In this document: one piece after another, positions 55,543 through 63,010 of the stretch
How positions within the stretch are numbered: position 1 is the stretch's first letter
Layout of the letters: every line of letters starts with the position of its first letter
Assembly: GCF_032918005.1 (NCBI RefSeq)
Contig: NZ_CP136628.1
Location: 3,271,501 to 3,335,500, forward strand
Direction: 5' to 3'
Source of the DNA: Bradyrhizobium sp. NDS-1
GTDB lineage: Bacteria; Pseudomonadota; Alphaproteobacteria; Rhizobiales; Xanthobacteraceae
DNA length: 64,000 bases
Translations under genes and position numbers: made by a program
Notes under the pieces: model-generated
Databases searched by the model: none
Told to the model about the DNA's origin: nothing
What the model saw: the letters and a program-made list of their open reading frames with translations, nothing else

Positions 55543-56058
55543 CTACGCCGCTTTCCTGCGGGGCTTCGGCTTTGCCTTCTTGTCGAGCAAGGCTGTCTCT
55601 GCTGCCGGGCGCGCGCCCGGACCAGGATGGACATGAACCTCCTTGGCCGAAAGCGGCTCGCCGCATTCCGAGCACACCATCACGGGGTCAAACATCTTGC
55701 CGCATTTGCGGTGCTCATGCAGAAGGGGCCGCCCACGTTCGTCGACCATGTGGGTGTCGCCCCAATGCACCAGCGCCATCATGATCGGATAGAGGTCGAG
55801 GCCCTTCTGCGTCAGGATGTACTCGTGGCGTTTGGGCGATTCCTGATAGGGAATGCGGCGCAGGACGCCTTGCCGAACCAGCTTTTTCAGCCGCTCTGCG
55901 AGCAGATGGCGCGTGATTCCCAGCGCTGACTGAAAGCCCTCGAAACGGCGCGTCCGCAGGAAGCACTCGCGGAGAATAAGAAGCGTCCAGCGGTCACCGA
56001 TCACCCCGATGGTGCGAGCCATCGAACATGGCTCTGCCTCAAGCTCATCCCATTTCAT
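55543..56058 (-). CDS. HxlR family transcriptional regulator
   Basis: The 171-residue protein has the HxlR winged helix: CSMARTIGVIGDRWTLLILRECFLRTRRFEGFQSALGITRHLLAERLKKLVRQGVLRRIPYQESPKRHEYILTQKG. The C-terminal part carries CGKMFDPVMVCSECGEPL with three or four cysteines (HRKCGK, VCSECG), which may bind zinc or sense oxidants or electrophiles. It faces the catabolic genes across a 230-base divergent region containing an inverted repeat, and probably represses them. ATG 56058 is preceded by AGCAGGA. Confidence 0.9.
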   Translation of the reverse strand: MKWDELEAEPCSMARTIGVIGDRWTLLILRECFLRTRRFEGFQSALGITRHLLAERLKKLVRQGVLRRIPYQESPKRHEYILTQKGLDLYPIMMALVHWGDTHMVDERGRPLLHEHRKCGKMFDPVMVCSECGEPLSAKEVHVHPGPGARPAAETALLDKKAKPKPRRKAA

Positions 56059-56199
56059 TCCTGCTCTCCGGTCGACCGGTGCCCGTTCCACTCGCATTCG
56101 GGAAAGGGCTGCGCCACCATACCATTCTAGATAGGTACTAAAGTTGATACAATACCCCCGCCGGTCCCATCAAACCCCAAGCATTCAGGTGGATTTGAC

Positions 56200-56216
56200 A
56201 GTTCGATTTTAGAACT
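56200..56216. promoter_or_regulatory. Inverted repeat AGTTC-N7-GAACT, candidate operator (copy 1)
   Basis: AGTTCGATTTTAGAACT followed by ATA lies 72 bases upstream of the isomerase ATG. The same AGTTC-N7-GAACT-ATA arrangement occurs at 59844-59860. It is probably an operator for the cluster regulator, either the adjacent HxlR protein or another factor. Confidence 0.6.
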
Positions 56217-56288
56217 ATAAGACCGAGTAGCCTGCGCTCGGCCTAGAAGATCACCGAACCATCGTTGCACTCTGCGGGAGGAACTGAC

Positions 56289-56921
56289 ATGTCTCTGAAG
56301 GTTGAATTTCTGTTCGATTTCGGCAGTCCAAACGCTTATCTCGCGGAATTGGCCCTTCCGGGAATCGAACGGCGCACCGGCGTGAAATTCGATTACGTCC
56401 CGATCCTGCTCGGCGGCATCTTCAAGGCGACGGGCAACATGTCCCCGTTCGAATTCCTTCAAGGCATCAAGAATAAGCCGGAATACCAGGCGCTGGAGAC
56501 ACAGCGCTTCATTCGCCGCCACAATGCAACGAAGTTCCGGACCAATCCGTTCTTTCCGGTCAATACGCTGATGTTGATGCGCGGCGCCGTGGCGGCGCAG
56601 CTCGAAGGCGTGTTCGAGCCCTATTTCCGCGCGGCCTACCACCACATGTGGGAGGAGCCGAAGAAGATGGATGATCTCGAAACCTACCGAAAGGCATTCA
56701 CCTCCTCAGGGGTCGATATCGATCGGTTGCTTGCGCGTGCGCAGCAGGACGACGTCAAGAAGGGGTTGATCGATCGGACCACCGACGCGGTCAACCGCGG
56801 CGCATTCGGCTCGCCGACCTTCTTCGTTGGAGAGGAAATGTTCTTCGGCAAGGACCAGCTCCGCGATGTCGAGGAGTCGATCGTCGAGCAGATCGGCCAG
56901 CCCGTTTCGAAGACGGCCTAG
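56289..56921 (+). CDS. DsbA-fold 2-hydroxychromene-2-carboxylate isomerase-like protein
   Basis: The 210-residue protein matches the HCCA isomerase/GST-kappa fold: FLFDFGSPNAYLAELALPGIE (the catalytic Ser in FGSPNAYL), NPFFPVNTLMLMRGAVAA, and C-terminal GAFGSPTFFVGEEMFFGKDQL (cis-Pro loop). Members isomerise naphthalene-pathway intermediates or use glutathione. It is the first gene of the plus-strand pair with the CoA-transferase. GGGAGGAACTGAC precedes the ATG at 56289. Confidence 0.88.
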   Translation: MSLKVEFLFDFGSPNAYLAELALPGIERRTGVKFDYVPILLGGIFKATGNMSPFEFLQGIKNKPEYQALETQRFIRRHNATKFRTNPFFPVNTLMLMRGAVAAQLEGVFEPYFRAAYHHMWEEPKKMDDLETYRKAFTSSGVDIDRLLARAQQDDVKKGLIDRTTDAVNRGAFGSPTFFVGEEMFFGKDQLRDVEESIVEQIGQPVSKTA

Positions 56922-57023
56922 GGACAGAACCTGAAGCCTGCAGAGCCGGACGGATATCCGGCGCCTGCAGGGGCGAAAAATCCGGTCGGCCTCATAACAA
57001 AACCAAATCGAGGGAGAGAGATC

Positions 57024-58223
57024 ATGCCCGGTCCACTCAGCGGCGTCCGTGTCCTCGATCTGACAGGTGTGGTGTCGGGCCCGTTCGCGACCATGTTTCT
57101 GGCGGATCAGGGCGCCGACGTCCTGAAGATCGAGCCGATCGGCGGTGATATTACACGCCGGAGCCGTGCGACGATCGACAAGGACGGTGAGTTTTCGGCC
57201 CTGTTCATTTCGTCAAACCGCGGCAAGCGCTCGCTGTCGATCGACGTCAAGAGCGCGGCTGGCCGAGAGGTTCTCGCCAAGCTGGTCGCGCAGGCGGATG
57301 TCCTGGTGCAGAATTTCCGGCCCGGCACCATGGAGCGCCTCGGTCTCGGCGTCGAAGAGTTGCGCCAGCGCCATCCGCGCCTGATCTATGTGTCGATCAG
57401 CGGTGTTGGTGACACCGGACCCTATGTGAAGAAGCGCGTTTACGACCCGATCATTCAGGGACTCTCGGGCTTTGCCGATATCCAGTCGCAGCCGGTCACC
57501 AACCGTCCGCAGATGATCCGTACCATCGTATGCGACAAGACCACCGCCGTGTTCACCGCCCAAGCGGTCGCAGCGGCGCTCTATGCCCGCGAGAAGACAG
57601 GGCGGGGCGACCACATTCAGATCGCTATGCTGGATGCGATGATCTCGTATCTGTGGCCCGAGGGCATGATGCAATACACGGTGGTGGGTGCCGAGGCCGC
57701 AGCTGCCGATCCCAACGATCGCCCCGATCTCGTGTTCAAGACCAGCGACGGCTACATCACCGCCGGTACCATTTCCGATTCTGAATGGCAGGGCTTTTGC
57801 AAGGCCTCCGGCGATCCCGAGCTTGCCAACGATCCCCGGTTTGCGACGCCTGCGGCGCGTTCCGTCAACGCCACGGCACGCATCAACAAAATGGCGGAGT
57901 ATATCGGCCAGCACACCACCGCCGAATGGCTGGAACGCCTGGATGCCGCCGACGTCCCTTGCTCGCCGATCCTGCGGCGAGGCGAGATCATCCACAATGA
58001 ACAGGTGGTCGCGCGCGAGATCATCGCGGAGTTCGATCAACCCAAGGTCGGTCGGGTGCGTCAACCAAAGCCCGCAGCGCGCTTTGCAATCAACGAGGCC
58101 GCGATCGGTGGACCTGCTCCCAGGGTCGGCGAGCACTCCCGCGACGTGTTGCGCGAGCTGGGTTACGACGACAGCGCCATCGACAAGATGGTCGCAGAGC
58201 GCAGCGTACGCGTCGCGGTTTAG
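57024..58223 (+). CDS. Family III CoA-transferase (CaiB/BaiF type)
   Basis: The 399-residue protein moves CoA between a carboxylic acid and an acyl-CoA. Hallmarks: GPLSGVRVLDLTGVVSGPFATMFLADQGADVLKIEPIGGD at the N-terminus, SVNRGKRSLSIDVKS-like segment, the catalytic Asp in IVCDKTTAVFTAQAV, and C-terminal VARRIIAEFDQPKVGRVRQP. Cytosolic. It follows the isomerase by about 100 bases and ends convergently with the GST gene. It likely activates or recycles the pathway acid. GAGGGAGAGAGATC precedes the ATG. Confidence 0.92.
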   Translation: MPGPLSGVRVLDLTGVVSGPFATMFLADQGADVLKIEPIGGDITRRSRATIDKDGEFSALFISSNRGKRSLSIDVKSAAGREVLAKLVAQADVLVQNFRPGTMERLGLGVEELRQRHPRLIYVSISGVGDTGPYVKKRVYDPIIQGLSGFADIQSQPVTNRPQMIRTIVCDKTTAVFTAQAVAAALYAREKTGRGDHIQIAMLDAMISYLWPEGMMQYTVVGAEAAAADPNDRPDLVFKTSDGYITAGTISDSEWQGFCKASGDPELANDPRFATPAARSVNATARINKMAEYIGQHTTAEWLERLDAADVPCSPILRRGEIIHNEQVVAREIIAEFDQPKVGRVRQPKPAARFAINEAAIGGPAPRVGEHSRDVLRELGYDDSAIDKMVAERSVRVAV

Positions 58224-58249
58224 CCGCGAAGCCCGTTGGCAGCGGTCTT

Positions 58250-58927
58250 CTAGGCCTTCGCCGGCACCGGCGTGATCGGTGCCATCGCGACATTCGCCGC
58301 GAGGGCTCGCTGAAATGCATCCCGTTTCCTGATGCGCTCGAGATAGGGCTGAGCGTTGTCGCAAATGGGCACGCCATAAACGATGGCCCACTCAAGGCAG
58401 GTCGTGAGCAGGATGTCTGCGCTGGTAAACCGGTCGCCCATCAGGAATTGCCGGCCGTCCGAGAACGCGACCTCGACATGGCGCAACTGCTGGCGGAAAT
58501 ACTCGCCGGCTTGGGCGACGACCTCGGGCGCGATGCCGTAGATCGGGCCGAGCGCGTCGGCACGATGGCGGCGCATCACGTAAAGGCTGGTGGAATCCAG
58601 CTCCGCGACGATAAAGAAGCACCATTCCAGCCACGCTGCATATTCGCGGGGGGCTTCCGGAATCAGCGAGCGTTCCGTCGTGGAATACATTCGCGACAAA
58701 TAAGCAACGATCGCCGCGCTCTCGCCGATGCAGAAGTCACCGTCCTGAAGCAGCGGGATCTTCTGGCGCGGATTGAGCTTCGAGTATTCTGCGGTCTTGG
58801 TCTCGCCGGTTCGCGGCCCAATGGGCTTTGTCTCATAGACCAGACCCAGCTCGTGCATGGCCCAATGCGGACGAATGGTGCGGCTTGTTCCAACGCCCCA
58901 TAGCGTCAGGTTTGGCGTCGCGCTCAT
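58250..58927 (-). CDS. Glutathione S-transferase
   Basis: The 225-residue protein has a thioredoxin-like N-domain with the catalytic Ser in LWGVGTSRTIRPHWAMHELGL, the cis-Pro region KIPLLQDGDFCIGESAAIVAYL (glutathione contacts), and the helical C-domain with FTSADILLTTCLEWA. It follows the SDR gene by one base, so both are translated from one message. It may act in glutathione-dependent isomerisation or detoxification for the pathway. Confidence 0.92.
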   Translation of the reverse strand: MSATPNLTLWGVGTSRTIRPHWAMHELGLVYETKPIGPRTGETKTAEYSKLNPRQKIPLLQDGDFCIGESAAIVAYLSRMYSTTERSLIPEAPREYAAWLEWCFFIVAELDSTSLYVMRRHRADALGPIYGIAPEVVAQAGEYFRQQLRHVEVAFSDGRQFLMGDRFTSADILLTTCLEWAIVYGVPICDNAQPYLERIRKRDAFQRALAANVAMAPITPVPAKA

Positions 58928-58928
58928 G

Positions 58929-59672
58929 CTACCACTTCTCCACGGACGGGCGGAGATCGAGTTCGTGGGTCCAGCCATCTCTGCTTTGCTGGTGAGTGAA
59001 CCAATAGGCTTCGGCAATGGAGGAGGTCTTGGTCAGACTATCCGGCGGAATGTCGCTTGCTTCGATCCCCTTCGCTGCCTTCATGCGCTGGTGAATCGCC
59101 TCGCTGTCCACGCCAGCGTCGATCAGGAGGTGGACGACGTGAATGTTCTTCGGTCCAAGCTCGCGCGCCATCGCCTGGGCAACTGCTCGAAGTCCGAACT
59201 TCGCCGACGAGAACGCGGCAAATCCCTTGCCGCCACGCACACTGGCCGTCGCTCCGGTGAAGAAAATGGTGCCGCGTCCGCGCGGCAGCATCACGCGCGC
59301 AGCCTCGCGTCCGACCAGGAAGCCGCCGTAGCAGGCGAGTTCCCAGGCTTTGAAGAACAGCTTCTCCGTGGTGTCGAGCAGGGGCTTGTTGACGTTGGAG
59401 CCGGCATTGTAGAGGCAGACCTCGACAGGCCCGAGCTCTTTCTCGACCCGCGCGAATATGCCTTGGACGTCCGCTTCCTGGCGGGCATCGACGCTGAAGG
59501 CGTGAATGTCATGCCCGAGAGCCCTCAGCTCCGCCACGAGCCCCTGCGATTTGGACGCGTCACGCCTGCAGATGCAAACCGTATAGCCGCCCTTGGCAAA
59601 ACGCCGGGCGACCGCAGCGCCAATGGCATCGCCTGCGCCCACAAGCATCGCTACACCGCGGCTCGTTGCCAT
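58929..59672 (-). CDS. Short-chain dehydrogenase/reductase-like protein without catalytic Tyr (paralogue A)
   Basis: The 247-residue SDR has the dinucleotide-binding start VAMLVGAGDAIGAAVARRFAKGGY and NAG in VCLYNAGSNVN. At the active site the Tyr of YxxxK is Phe: FSSAK within GFAAFSSAKFGLRAVAQAMARELGPKNIHV. The usual Ser segment reads TGATAS. So normal alcohol oxidation is doubtful; it may use another residue or act differently. It is a close paralogue of the SDR at 61542 and is divergent from the ligase gene. Confidence 0.88.
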   Translation of the reverse strand: MATSRGVAMLVGAGDAIGAAVARRFAKGGYTVCICRRDASKSQGLVAELRALGHDIHAFSVDARQEADVQGIFARVEKELGPVEVCLYNAGSNVNKPLLDTTEKLFFKAWELACYGGFLVGREAARVMLPRGRGTIFFTGATASVRGGKGFAAFSSAKFGLRAVAQAMARELGPKNIHVVHLLIDAGVDSEAIHQRMKAAKGIEASDIPPDSLTKTSSIAEAYWFTHQQSRDGWTHELDLRPSVEKW

Positions 59673-59843
59673 TTTCGTTCCTCCTTAAGTTCTTATTTGA
59701 TACGTTATGCACACTAGCTGCCGAATGACGCGCTGTAAACGACGGCCGCTCTTGCGATCGTCATAGCGTCGCTCTTTTGTATGAGAAGAGGCAGACGGGT
59801 TGCCCAGACGATCCCGGGAGAGACGACGACATATCGATTGACG

Positions 59844-59860
59844 AGTTCTAAAAAAGAACT
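59844..59860. promoter_or_regulatory. Inverted repeat AGTTC-N7-GAACT, candidate operator (copy 2)
   Basis: AGTTCTAAAAAAGAACT followed by ATA lies in the divergent region between SDR paralogue A (minus) and the ligase (plus), 61 bases upstream of the chosen GTG. Half-site AGTTC recurs at 59688-59692 nearer the SDR gene. Confidence 0.6.
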
Positions 59861-59921
59861 ATATTTTGACGCCAGATGCCGGGTCGCAAAAGCCGGCATG
59901 GGTTCGATCGGGAGGTCAGTC

Positions 59922-61523
59922 GTGGTGGAGCTGTCAGAGGCGATCGGTCTCGACGAGATTGCTGTCGGCTTGCCGAGCCGCATCCATGAAGTCACGGCAA
60001 GCCAGGTTGCCAGAGCGCCCAGCCGGATTGCGCTGGTGGAAGACGGGGCTTCCTGGACTTACGGGGACCTGGAGCAGCGCGTTGACGGGATCGCCACCGT
60101 ACTCTCGTCCCTGGGGATCAGGGCCGGCGATCGGATGATCCTCGTCAGCGAAAACTGTATTGCGCTTGCCGCTTTGCTGTTGGCGTCGAGCCGGCTCGAC
60201 GCCTGGGCGATTGTCGCCAACCCGCGCTTGTCGGCGCGCGAACTGGACCAGATCCGCGACCACAGCGGCGCCCGCCGGATGTTTTTCACGTCGGGCATTT
60301 CGAAGGAGGCCGCTGCTCACGCCTCCCGCCATGGCGCCGAGAACCGGCGAATCGGCGCACTGGCAGACATTGGTGTCGGTCCGCTCAACGAAAGCGCGAC
60401 CGTCGAGCCGGTGCAGGCCAACCCTGCAACACAGGTCGCGGTGCTGATCTACACCTCGGGCACGACGGGGACTCCCAAGGGGGTGATGCTCTCGCACGAC
60501 AACCTGCTGATCAGTGCGAAGACCACCGCGCATTTCCGCAGGATGACCGAGGACGACAAGATCTATCTGGTGTTGCCGATCTCGCATATCGTCGGCATCT
60601 CGCTCCTGATCATGACGCTGATGGTCGGCGGCACGGTGCGGATGGTCAGCAAGTACGATCCGGCAACGACCGCAAAGGCGATCGCGGAGGAGGGCGTCAC
60701 CATCCTCAATGGCGTGCCTGCCACCTATCAGCGCCTGCTGGAGTACAAGACCGTATCAGGCGTGGAGCAACTCACCCGAGGTTCGTTGCGCCTGATTGCC
60801 GTTGCCGGTGCGCCGCTGGATTTGAATCTGAAGTTGCGTGTGGAAAGGGAGTTCGGGCTTTCGTTGCTCAACGGCTACGGGATCACCGAATGCTCGCCGG
60901 GAATATCAGGCGTCCGTTTCGACAGGCCGCGCTCGGATCAGGCGGTTGGTACGCTGTTGCCGGGAGTGGAGGCGCGGGTGCGAACCCTGGAAGGGTTTCC
61001 GACGGCCGCAGGTGAAGTCGGCGAGTTGCATGTTCGCGGGCGCAACGTGATGCTGGGGTACTACCGTGCCCCCGAGCTTACCGCGAAGGTGATTGATAGC
61101 GAGGGTTGGTTCAATACCGGCGATCTCGCGCGTTTCGACGGCGATTGTCTGTACATCGTGGGCCGCTCCAAGGAAATGATCATCCGATCCGGGTTCAACG
61201 TCTATCCCGCGGAGGTCGAAGCGGTCCTCAATTCACACAAGGACGTCGTGCAATCGGCTGTGGTCGGTCGTGCCGCGGACGGCAACGAGGAGATCGTCGC
61301 CTTCGTGCAATTGCTGCCGAGATCGCGCACGACGCCCGAGACTCTGAAGAGTTTCGCCCGATCCCAGCTGACGTCCTACAAACGGCCGTCCGAAATCATC
61401 GTACTTGATGCCTTGCCGGCGACCTCGACCGGCAAGATACTCAAGCACAAGCTGGCGGAGTCCTTGCGCGAAGGTGGCGCAGTCCCTCCGGTGCAGTCCG
61501 AACTCCGCCGGCAACATATCTAA
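59922..61523 (+). CDS. Acyl-CoA synthetase (AMP-binding enzyme)
   Basis: The 533-residue protein activates a carboxylic acid to its CoA thioester via an acyl-adenylate. Motifs: YTSGTTGTPKGVMLSH (P-loop), GYGITECSPG, GWFNTGDLARFD, GRSKEMIIRSGFNVYPAEVE and the catalytic Lys in TSTGKILKHKL. GTG 59922 is chosen because GGGAGG lies six bases upstream; ATG 59898 is an alternative start. The chain length or ring specificity cannot be read. Start of the plus-strand operon with SDR paralogue B (18 bases downstream) and the flavin reductase. Confidence 0.93.
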   Translation: MVELSEAIGLDEIAVGLPSRIHEVTASQVARAPSRIALVEDGASWTYGDLEQRVDGIATVLSSLGIRAGDRMILVSENCIALAALLLASSRLDAWAIVANPRLSARELDQIRDHSGARRMFFTSGISKEAAAHASRHGAENRRIGALADIGVGPLNESATVEPVQANPATQVAVLIYTSGTTGTPKGVMLSHDNLLISAKTTAHFRRMTEDDKIYLVLPISHIVGISLLIMTLMVGGTVRMVSKYDPATTAKAIAEEGVTILNGVPATYQRLLEYKTVSGVEQLTRGSLRLIAVAGAPLDLNLKLRVEREFGLSLLNGYGITECSPGISGVRFDRPRSDQAVGTLLPGVEARVRTLEGFPTAAGEVGELHVRGRNVMLGYYRAPELTAKVIDSEGWFNTGDLARFDGDCLYIVGRSKEMIIRSGFNVYPAEVEAVLNSHKDVVQSAVVGRAADGNEEIVAFVQLLPRSRTTPETLKSFARSQLTSYKRPSEIIVLDALPATSTGKILKHKLAESLREGGAVPPVQSELRRQHI

Positions 61524-61541: not shown

Positions 61542-62279
61542 TTGCAAAAGAGAAACGCAACCGTGGCCGTGATCGGCGCCGGAGACTATATCGGCGGCGA
61601 GATCGCCAAGAAGTTCGCTTCAGAGGGCTTCACCGTGTTCGCCGGGCGCCGCAATGGCGCCAAGCTCGAGCCCCTGGTCAAGGAGATCGAGGCGGCAGGC
61701 GGCGAAATCCACGCGCGCTCTCTCGATGCGCGCAAGGAAGAGGAGATCATCTCCTTTCTCGGCGACGCGGACAAGCACGCGCCGCTCGAGGTTTGTATCT
61801 TCAACATCGGCGCCAACGTCAATTTTCCGATCCTGGATACGACCGAACGCGTGTTCCGCAAGGTCTGGGAGATGGCCTGCTATTCCGGCTTTCTCGCCGG
61901 CCGTGAGGCCGCCCGCCTGATGCTGCCCCGCGGCAAGGGCAATATCTTCTTCACCGGTGCGACCGCGAGCCTTCGCGGCGGAAGCGGCTACGCAGCCTTC
62001 GCCAGCGCGAAGTTCGGCCTGCGGGCCGTGGCGCAGGCGACCGCGCGCGAACTGGGTCCTAAGAACATCCACGTGGCCCATCTCATCATCGATTCCGGAG
62101 TTGATACCGAATGGGTCCGCCAGCGGCGGATCGAGGCGCTCGGTCCCAACGCGCTGGATGACCCCAATCTCTTGATGCCGCCCTCGTCGGTCGCTGAGTC
62201 CTATTGGCTGCTCTATCAGCAGCCCAGAAGCGCCTGGACTTTCGAGCTCGAGATTCGCCCCTTCGGCGAGAAGTGGTAG
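61542..62279 (+). CDS. Short-chain dehydrogenase/reductase-like protein without catalytic Tyr (paralogue B)
   Basis: The 245-residue SDR has VAVIGAGDYIGGEIAKKFASEGF at the N-terminus. Like paralogue A, the segment GYAAFASAKFGLRAVAQATARELGPKNIHVAHLIIDSGVDTEW carries Phe four residues before the conserved Lys (FASAK). The two proteins share long identical stretches, for example SAKFGLRAVAQ and ARELGPKNIHV, and the tail EKW. The start is TTG 61542 with GGGAGG five bases upstream, 18 bases after the ligase stop. Confidence 0.88.
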   Translation: MQKRNATVAVIGAGDYIGGEIAKKFASEGFTVFAGRRNGAKLEPLVKEIEAAGGEIHARSLDARKEEEIISFLGDADKHAPLEVCIFNIGANVNFPILDTTERVFRKVWEMACYSGFLAGREAARLMLPRGKGNIFFTGATASLRGGSGYAAFASAKFGLRAVAQATARELGPKNIHVAHLIIDSGVDTEWVRQRRIEALGPNALDDPNLLMPPSSVAESYWLLYQQPRSAWTFELEIRPFGEKW

Positions 62280-62356: not shown

Positions 62357-63010
62357 ATGGATCCGTCAGACTTCCACTATTACGAGCCATCGAAGGGCCA
62401 CGGGCTCCGGCATAATCCGTTCAACGCGATTGTCGCGCCGCGTCCGATCGGCTGGATCTCGTCGCGTAATGCGGCTGGTCAACTCAACCTCGCGCCGTAC
62501 AGCTTCTTCAACGCGTTCCTCTACGATCCTCCGATCATCGGATTCTCCTCGATTTCGTGGAAGGACACCGTCAAGAACGTCAGCGAGACCCGCGAGTTCG
62601 TCTGGAATCTGGTCACCATGGATCTCGGCGAACGCATGAACGTGACAGCGGCACCGCTCGATCACGGCGTGAGCGAGTTCGAAGCAGCCGGACTGACGCC
62701 GATACCCGGGCGCCATGTTGACGTGCCGCGAGTCGGCGAGAGCAGGGCCGCCATGGAATGTAAGGTCGTCGAGGTCTCCCAACTGGCCAACGCACGCGGT
62801 GAAAAGGTCGAAGGTTGGTTCGTGCTTGGCGAGGTTGTCGCGGTCTACATCGACAAATCCTTGATCGAGGACGGCGTCTACAACACGGCACTTGCGCGTC
62901 CGATATTGCGTGCCGGCCGGGGTGGAGATTACCTCGAGGTCAGGACCGAAAACATGTTCGAGATGAAGCGCCCGCCGGGTAGCAGCAAGCCTGAATTCCA
63001 CGGTACATGA
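62357..63010 (+). CDS. Flavin reductase family protein (FMN-binding split barrel)
   Basis: The 217-residue protein has the HpaC/flavin reductase pattern: NPFNAIVAPRPIGWISSRNAAGQLNLAPYSFFNAFLYDPPIIGFSS. Such proteins bind FMN and can supply reduced flavin to a monooxygenase, or act as a flavin-binding enzyme on their own. No monooxygenase partner is in the window. It follows SDR paralogue B by 77 bases with AAAGGGAC before the ATG. Confidence 0.9.
   Translation: MDPSDFHYYEPSKGHGLRHNPFNAIVAPRPIGWISSRNAAGQLNLAPYSFFNAFLYDPPIIGFSSISWKDTVKNVSETREFVWNLVTMDLGERMNVTAAPLDHGVSEFEAAGLTPIPGRHVDVPRVGESRAAMECKVVEVSQLANARGEKVEGWFVLGEVVAVYIDKSLIEDGVYNTALARPILRAGRGGDYLEVRTENMFEMKRPPGSSKPEFHGT

Follow-up and report, generated by a model that had tools for sequence, protein, structure and literature searches.

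In Bacillus subtilis, the HxlR-family repressors YodB and CatR (MarR/DUF24) repress catabolic or detoxification operons and carry an N-terminal sensor cysteine. Their operator is a TTAC-N7-GTAA repeat. B. subtilis HxlR is a formaldehyde sensor, described as an activator that gains DNA binding once formaldehyde crosslinks Cys11 to Lys13, with Cys11 as the conserved electrophile-sensing cysteine of the family (PMC7835342). Here we analyse a 64,000-nucleotide stretch of Bradyrhizobium sp. NDS-1 (contig NZ_CP136628.1, positions 3,271,501 to 3,335,500; hereafter the window), in which a gene for an HxlR-family regulator, hxlR, belongs to a catabolic gene cluster with two copies of the palindrome AGTTC-N7-GAACT. 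Sequence comparison makes it very probable that these palindromes are operators of the neighbouring HxlR protein acting as a repressor, and that they place genes for uptake and acid degradation, scattered in Bradyrhizobium and its relatives, under one switch.

The MarR/DUF24 repressors YodB and CatR are the closest mechanistic relatives of this system. The window protein has the same HxlR-type winged helix, and its predicted operator has the same 7-bp spacing. Unlike in YodB and CatR, the arms here are AGTTC/GAACT and the regulon covers CoA-linked catabolism and uptake; the protein itself has 171 residues versus 112 for YodB, with a conserved C-terminal His/Cys pattern. It also shares its Pfam family with B. 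subtilis HxlR, but reads C11-S12-M13, with a methionine in place of the crosslink lysine. The cluster further resembles isoGHIJ of isoprene degraders, in which IsoH is a short-chain dehydrogenase (SDR): a glutathione S-transferase (GST), an SDR and a class III CoA-transferase stand together in the window as well. This likeness concerns gene families only; acyl-CoA ligases, ATP-binding cassette (ABC) proteins and HxlR are present here in addition, and no isoprene monooxygenase was noticed among the genes called around the sites in this genome, where no search aimed at that enzyme was made.

The palindromes and their distribution

A preliminary description of this DNA had reported the inverted repeat, followed by ATA, at 56200-56216 and 59844-59860, and both copies are present exactly as it claimed:

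56200 to 56216, plus strand: predicted operator 1, AGTTC-GATTTTA-GAACT (AGTTCGATTTTAGAACT), with ATA directly 3'
59844 to 59860, plus strand: predicted operator 2, AGTTC-TAAAAAA-GAACT (AGTTCTAAAAAAGAACT), with ATA directly 3'
55543 to 56058, minus strand: hxlR, HxlR-family regulator of 171 aa with start MKW (PF01638, E 1.2e-23); open reading frame readable from 56097

The 3' end of operator 1 lies 72 bp from the ATG of a DsbA/isomerase gene (56289) and that of operator 2 lies 61 bp from the GTG of an acyl-CoA ligase gene (59922), within the 60-75 bases given previously. The window holds no other exact match. Under a first-order Markov model of the window, 0.024 exact copies are expected per 64 kb, in agreement with the earlier estimate of a few percent for one copy, and the probability of two or more is 2.8e-4. 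Both copies had also been assigned to divergent promoter regions; this stood for 56059-56288, the hxlR/isomerase interval that includes the regulator, but not for 59673-59921, the gap between SDR and ligase genes. Likewise, the ATA counted as part of the motif occurs at both copies but lies outside the palindrome, where its TA fits the start of a -10 box.

The proposal that one regulator acts on both sites, with the HxlR protein encoded at 55543 as candidate, gains support from where the motif occurs. Across 36 genomes of the genus, an exact site was found within 350 bp of 37/43 subfamily hxlR genes (75% identity or more) versus 2/100 listed matches to paralogues with less than 50% identity, where only best matches are listed and certain double-domain frames contribute both of their halves to the 100. 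A short fragment of 72% identity (G022:C19) and order-level genome matches were omitted from both counts. With so few exact sites near the listed paralogues, we rejected the idea of a general HxlR motif. The form with an A/T-rich centre, AGTTC-NNWWWWN-GAACT, occupies 64 distinct places in the 36 genomes, versus no forward-strand match in any genome and one reverse-strand match, in one genome, for the reversed control. Of the 64, 27 do not adjoin a subfamily hxlR, and 18 of these 27 have such a gene within 30 kb.

Conservation upstream of orthologous clusters, a test already suggested for the motif, was assessed in the best 80 of 152 relatives, a set that is mostly Bradyrhizobium, plus Afipia and related metagenome bins, and that overlaps the genus set in part. 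Within 320 bp upstream of hxlR, 75/80 have an exact site and the remaining 5 a one-mismatch site, so that 80/80 fall within one mismatch. The HxlR in a B. diazoefficiens SZCCT0449 locus is 100% identical to the window's.

At the level of the family, a subfamily HxlR was called at E 1e-45 or better in 15 of 119 genomes. The motif search covered G060-G176 (117 genomes labelled same family, genus or species) plus G000 and G021, taken as those 119 genomes, and found an exact site anywhere in 14/15 genomes with the subfamily HxlR versus 6/104 without (Fisher p 9e-13). In 5 of the 6 genomes without the subfamily HxlR the match is on one strand only, so the spacer is not A/T-rich throughout, as for chance hits. 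For the genus set plus 24 genomes of other families in the order, the site is present in 30/33 genomes with this HxlR versus 1/27 without it.

Within its own 7.65-Mb chromosome, Bradyrhizobium sp. NDS-1 has 7 exact N7 palindromes versus 3 for the reversed control, and 4 versus 0 when an A/T-rich spacer centre is required. One of the two A/T-rich sites outside the window precedes, by 131 bp, a second hxlR that shares 87% identity with that of the window, and the other lies before a gene for an ABC substrate-binding protein (SBP). Genome-wide scattering, which the preliminary description took as the sign of an unrelated motif, is not what we see: allowing one mismatch and requiring an A/T-rich spacer gives 10 sites, versus 1 in the control, and all 10 are in three gene regions.

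Promoter geometry

From the relatives' loci and the window we obtained 182 distinct exact sites after merging identical 137-base contexts. TTGAC touches exactly one side of the palindrome at 168/182 sites, directly at 111 and with a one-base gap at 57; in the no-gap class, the palindrome's first A is the sixth base of TTGACA. Beyond the other end of the palindrome, positions 2 and 3 are T (96%) and A (94%) at the 111 gap-0 sites and T (98%) and A (98%) at the 57 gap-1 sites, which fits the start of a -10 box that follows a spacer of 17 or 18 bp. With TTGAC on one side and TA on the other, the 17-bp palindrome fills the predicted -35/-10 spacer, and the target lies downstream. This filling of the promoter spacer at 168/182 distinct sites is newly noted here. 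A known target gene stands downstream at 160 of the 168 (isomerase 88, SBP gene 37, the second short-chain dehydrogenase SDR2 18, ligase 17), and another open frame at 8. In the window, the predicted promoters are TTGACA-17-TAAGAC for the isomerase and TTGACG-18-TATTTT for the ligase:

56195 to 56200, plus strand: predicted -35 box TTGACA of the isomerase/CoA-transferase operon, its TTGAC abutting the palindrome
56218 to 56223, plus strand: predicted -10 region TAAGAC of the isomerase/CoA-transferase operon, with the conserved TA start
59838 to 59843, plus strand: predicted -35 box TTGACG of the ligase promoter (gap-1 class)
59862 to 59867, plus strand: predicted -10 box TATTTT of the ligase promoter, with the conserved TA start

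Upstream of orthologues we also scored a composite promoter-operator made up of TTGAC and the two arms, 15 positions in all, of which up to 2 may mismatch. It is present at 94/94 isomerase, 52/56 SBP and 39/52 ligase genes, and at 36/103 SDR2 genes, which are often operon-internal. It was found neither upstream of genes that are usually operon-internal (CoA-transferase 0/61, GST 0/59, large acyl-CoA dehydrogenase 0/65, 606-aa ligase 0/42) nor in shuffled sequences. The values for HxlR (23/116) and the first short-chain dehydrogenase, SDR1 (4/60), were not used because a palindrome is the same on both strands, so that the one in the neighbouring promoter contaminates these counts.

A dimer on such a site would cover the core promoter, so repression by polymerase exclusion is the natural reading, and the arrangement of the palindrome within the spacer favours repression. 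Overlap of the operator with the core of the target promoter, as in repressors of the YodB/CatR type, is found at 168/182 sites, all with predicted promoters.

The A/T centre shows opposite asymmetry in the two promoter classes, being TATTTTA after TTGACA without a gap and TAAAAAA after TTGAC plus one base (for example at L063 8813 and 12447). Our guess, and it is plainly a guess, is that this reflects shared ancestry within each class.

The hxlR promoter

The hxlR promoter is oriented opposite to the isomerase promoter and has its own predicted boxes, overlapped by a further, imperfect copy of the palindrome 64 bp upstream of the hxlR start codon:

56147 to 56152, minus strand: predicted hxlR -35 box TTGTAT
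56124 to 56129, minus strand: predicted hxlR -10 box TAGAAT, 17 bp from the -35 box
56123 to 56139, minus strand: degenerate operator copy AGTACCTATCTAGAATG (AGTAC-CTATCTA-GAATG), overlapping the hxlR promoter; predicted autoregulation

We searched 123 hxlR upstream regions for such copies with the main site masked; dropping 6 without a recognised start codon left 117, of which 110 are distinct. The best degenerate match has at most 3 mismatches in 105 of the 110 regions and at most 2 in 22, as compared to 24% and 3%, respectively, in base shuffles. Nearly all of the 105 copies (98) start AGTAC, AGTTC or AGTGC. At the same position, other lineages have AGTTC-N7-GAATT or AGTTC-N7-TGACT, and one locus (L164) has an exact palindrome. 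A degenerate copy over the hxlR -10 box suggests autoregulation.

A repressor model and its alternatives

From this conservation, geometry and co-occurrence we infer how the switch could work. The two subunits of an HxlR dimer (encoded at 55543-56058) would read the AGTTC and GAACT arms. Because the palindrome fills the predicted spacer (TTGAC[A/N]-17-mer-TA), the bound dimer should exclude RNA polymerase, and the isomerase/CoA-transferase and ligase/SDR operons would be repressed. Targets in trans would be a second hxlR/isomerase divergon, an SDR-acyl-CoA-dehydrogenase operon, ABC SBP genes and an operon with ligase, old-yellow enzyme (OYE) and enoyl-CoA hydratase. The weaker copy over the hxlR -10 box would bring about negative autoregulation. 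An inducer would release the repressor; the likeliest candidates are an acid derived from the substrate, the CoA thioester of that acid or a reactive enone, possibly acting via Cys11.

MerR-type operators also sit in the -35/-10 spacer, and MerR promoter spacers measure 19-20 bp. Given this shared position, HxlR might bind the same sites and activate, by MerR-like twisting of the spacer or in the manner of B. subtilis HxlR, but we consider activation unlikely. The predicted spacer measures 17 or 18 bp and the TTGAC box is complete, as in a normal promoter for which no untwisting is needed, and a recruiting activator would be expected to have its site upstream of the -35 box. B. subtilis HxlR is labelled an activator in PDB entries and is described as gaining DNA binding on formaldehyde (PMC7835342). 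Its crosslink lysine is replaced by methionine in the window HxlR, however, and this replacement, together with a site inside a spacer of normal length, makes activation less likely. An unlinked transcription factor that binds the palindrome, with HxlR as a mere neighbour, could account for sites far from any subfamily hxlR, such as 1803176 in this genome. We regard it as very unlikely, since the site follows the HxlR subfamily across genera, adjoins both hxlR copies of this genome and seldom occurs near other HxlR genes, and since the promoter of hxlR itself is overlapped by a degenerate copy. It is scarcely credible that the two copies arose by chance or that they are promoter elements conserved with no regulator involved: a plain -35/-10 promoter does make up part of the conserved block, but palindromic arms within the spacer are no part of a sigma-70 promoter, and just 6/104 family genomes without this HxlR contain the motif. 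On the Markov expectation of 0.024 per 64 kb and the reversed-control counts, chance occurrence of two copies was rejected.

Several observations weigh against HxlR as a repressor at all these sites. An exact site is missing at 6/43 subfamily hxlR genes of the genus set. At five of them the isomerase or SDR2 is preceded by a TTGAC-bearing site with one mismatch; the contig of the sixth (L068) is that of L112, where the site likewise differs at one position. Two unrelated-looking HxlR paralogues also have a site. TTGAC is absent at 14/182 exact sites and at 3/10 sites of this genome (5190511, 5196087 and 1803010); these three may be auxiliary or chance. The composite score is worse than 4 mismatches upstream of 12/52 ligase and 4/56 SBP genes, with one further ligase region at 3-4, and is mixed for SBP2 (0/7), OYE (1/4) and a second ligase (ACL2, 5/10), some of these genes being operon-internal. 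At the hxlR promoter, the GAAT half of the degenerate copy is also the -10 box, and the conservation of the copy is therefore partly that of the promoter; its AGT-C half is foreign to a -10 box, which argues for an operator. Lastly, the relatives share descent and the locus sets overlap, so the counts are not independent.

Candidate sensor residues of the HxlR protein

The PF01638 HxlR domain of the window protein scores 83.2 bits, versus a cut-off of 20.8. The redox families RrpA and RrpB (NCBIfam) were rejected, with 32.9 bits versus 185 for RrpA and 48 versus 175 for RrpB. M1, K2, W3 and Cys11 are invariant in 17/17 aligned close homologues, and Cys11 aligns with a Cys of HypR (YybR, 4a5m) and with Cys11 of B. 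subtilis HxlR (7bze). Because Cys11 aligns with the sensor cysteine of the family, it is possible that an electrophile signal passes through it. Also invariant in 17/17 is a C-terminal H-x-H-x2-C-x9-C-x2-C pattern at residues 114-132 (H114, H116, C119, C129, C132), which appears to resemble metal ligands more than a sensor. Among the cysteines of HxlR, Cys11 is the likelier sensor. The closest solved relatives by sequence, PA1607 (2f2e, E 7.3e-23) and 4gcv (E 1e-22), do not have the CxxC cysteines of the window HxlR in the aligned C-terminal part.

An HxlR that is 38-39% identical to the window's (G025:C1:1892097) has AGTTC-TTATTTT-GAACT about 90 bp upstream (L091 6098-6114). A broader HxlR branch may share the operator.

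Gene content and predicted regulon

Besides hxlR, the cluster in the window comprises:

56289 to 56921, plus strand: DsbA-fold, 2-hydroxychromene-2-carboxylate (HCCA) isomerase-like protein, kin to kappa-GST (PF01323; PDB 2imd, HCCA isomerase, E 5.4e-11)
57024 to 58223, plus strand: class III CoA-transferase (PF02515, E 2.6e-110)
58250 to 58927, minus strand: glutathione S-transferase (PF02798, PF13410)
58929 to 59672, minus strand: short-chain dehydrogenase SDR1 (PF00106)
59922 to 61523, plus strand: acyl-CoA ligase, AMP-binding (PF00501, E 1.7e-82)
61542 to 62279, plus strand: short-chain dehydrogenase SDR2 (PF00106; PDB 3h7a, E 2.6e-126)
62357 to 63010, plus strand: flavin-reductase-like protein, possible operon end (PF01613)

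Feruloyl-CoA synthetase and malonyl/benzoate-CoA ligase chains are among the top PDB matches of the acyl-CoA ligase. Across relatives, the order hxlR / isomerase-(CoA-transferase, GST, SDR1)-ligase-SDR2-acyl-CoA dehydrogenase-acyl-CoA dehydrogenase recurs in full or in part. By synteny, SDR2 is a frequent partner of this hxlR, and in the smallest loci (hxlR / SDR2) it is the sole gene beside it.

The three regions of this genome that hold the 10 sites are (i) the window cluster together with a ligase-SBP-OYE-enoyl-CoA-hydratase operon 14 kb further on (site 3345545, one mismatch); (ii) 5185-5196 kb, with an SDR2'-acyl-CoA-dehydrogenase pair, a second isomerase/hxlR pair (isomerase2/hxlR2; hxlR2 at 5186450-5186965) and, next to the gene for a 606-aa acyl-CoA ligase, an SBP gene; and (iii) an SBP gene at 1803 kb. 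The Pfam families found there are AMP-binding, Peripla_BP_6, Oxidored_FMN, ECH_1 and paired acyl-CoA dehydrogenases. The predicted regulon thus extends past the window cluster to ABC substrate-binding proteins, acyl-CoA ligases, acyl-CoA dehydrogenases and an old-yellow enzyme. For the large acyl-CoA dehydrogenase the nearest model is PimC (486 bits, under the cut-off of 624), and the 606-aa ligase is above the cut-off of the subfamily model PRK12582 (809 versus 777). For the ligases, dehydrogenases, OYE and CoA-transferase, none of the equivalogs among the displayed NCBIfam models scored above its cut-off.

Judged by these families, the pathway would import an acid, convert it to a CoA ester and degrade it by dehydrogenation, with glutathione chemistry alongside. 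It is tempting to speculate, though we hold this only tentatively, that the HxlR subfamily is a metabolite sensor for glutathione- and CoA-linked catabolism, in which Cys11 would read an enone or an alpha,beta-unsaturated acyl-CoA and the C-terminal His/Cys cluster would hold a metal. The operator-in-spacer could then be a portable two-phase promoter module, with TTGAC abutting or one base off, that has brought scattered operons for uptake and degradation into the regulon across the family.

From sequence alone, this analysis provides a proteobacterial HxlR-family protein with a sharply defined predicted operator, a list of regulon genes and a promoter layout from which repression is predicted. 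This makes testable the function of a conserved Bradyrhizobium catabolic network of isomerase, GST, CoA-transferase, ligases, paired acyl-CoA dehydrogenases and ABC binding proteins. A literature search of titles and abstract beginnings, with most subscription journals outside its coverage, returned no paper on the motif or the regulon; the motif letters had no hits, and combining HxlR with Bradyrhizobium led to no work on this system. Control by an HxlR repressor through a palindromic operator is of a familiar type; the case predicted here is new and unusually well defined by comparison.

The catabolic region continues past the window (L174, genome 3333000-3352000). An MFS protein, a thiolase-like protein, a TetR-like protein and a 773-aa oxidoreductase were labelled there by eye; the region also holds SDRs, proteins resembling enoyl-CoA hydratase, another HxlR-like frame and the 3345545 operon. 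In another genome (G034), exact sites (L087 7363 and L088 6579) lie upstream of an electron-transfer-flavoprotein (ETF)-beta-like frame, again labelled by eye, and of an old-yellow-enzyme gene; the genes behind them are possible extra members of the regulon. The 442-aa gene next to the one-mismatch site 5196087 in Bradyrhizobium sp. NDS-1 has an orthologue (95%) beside the L087 site. A genome of another family (G041) has three identical copies of AGTTCAGTTTATGAACT on three contigs, probably a repeated element with no relation to the HxlR system.

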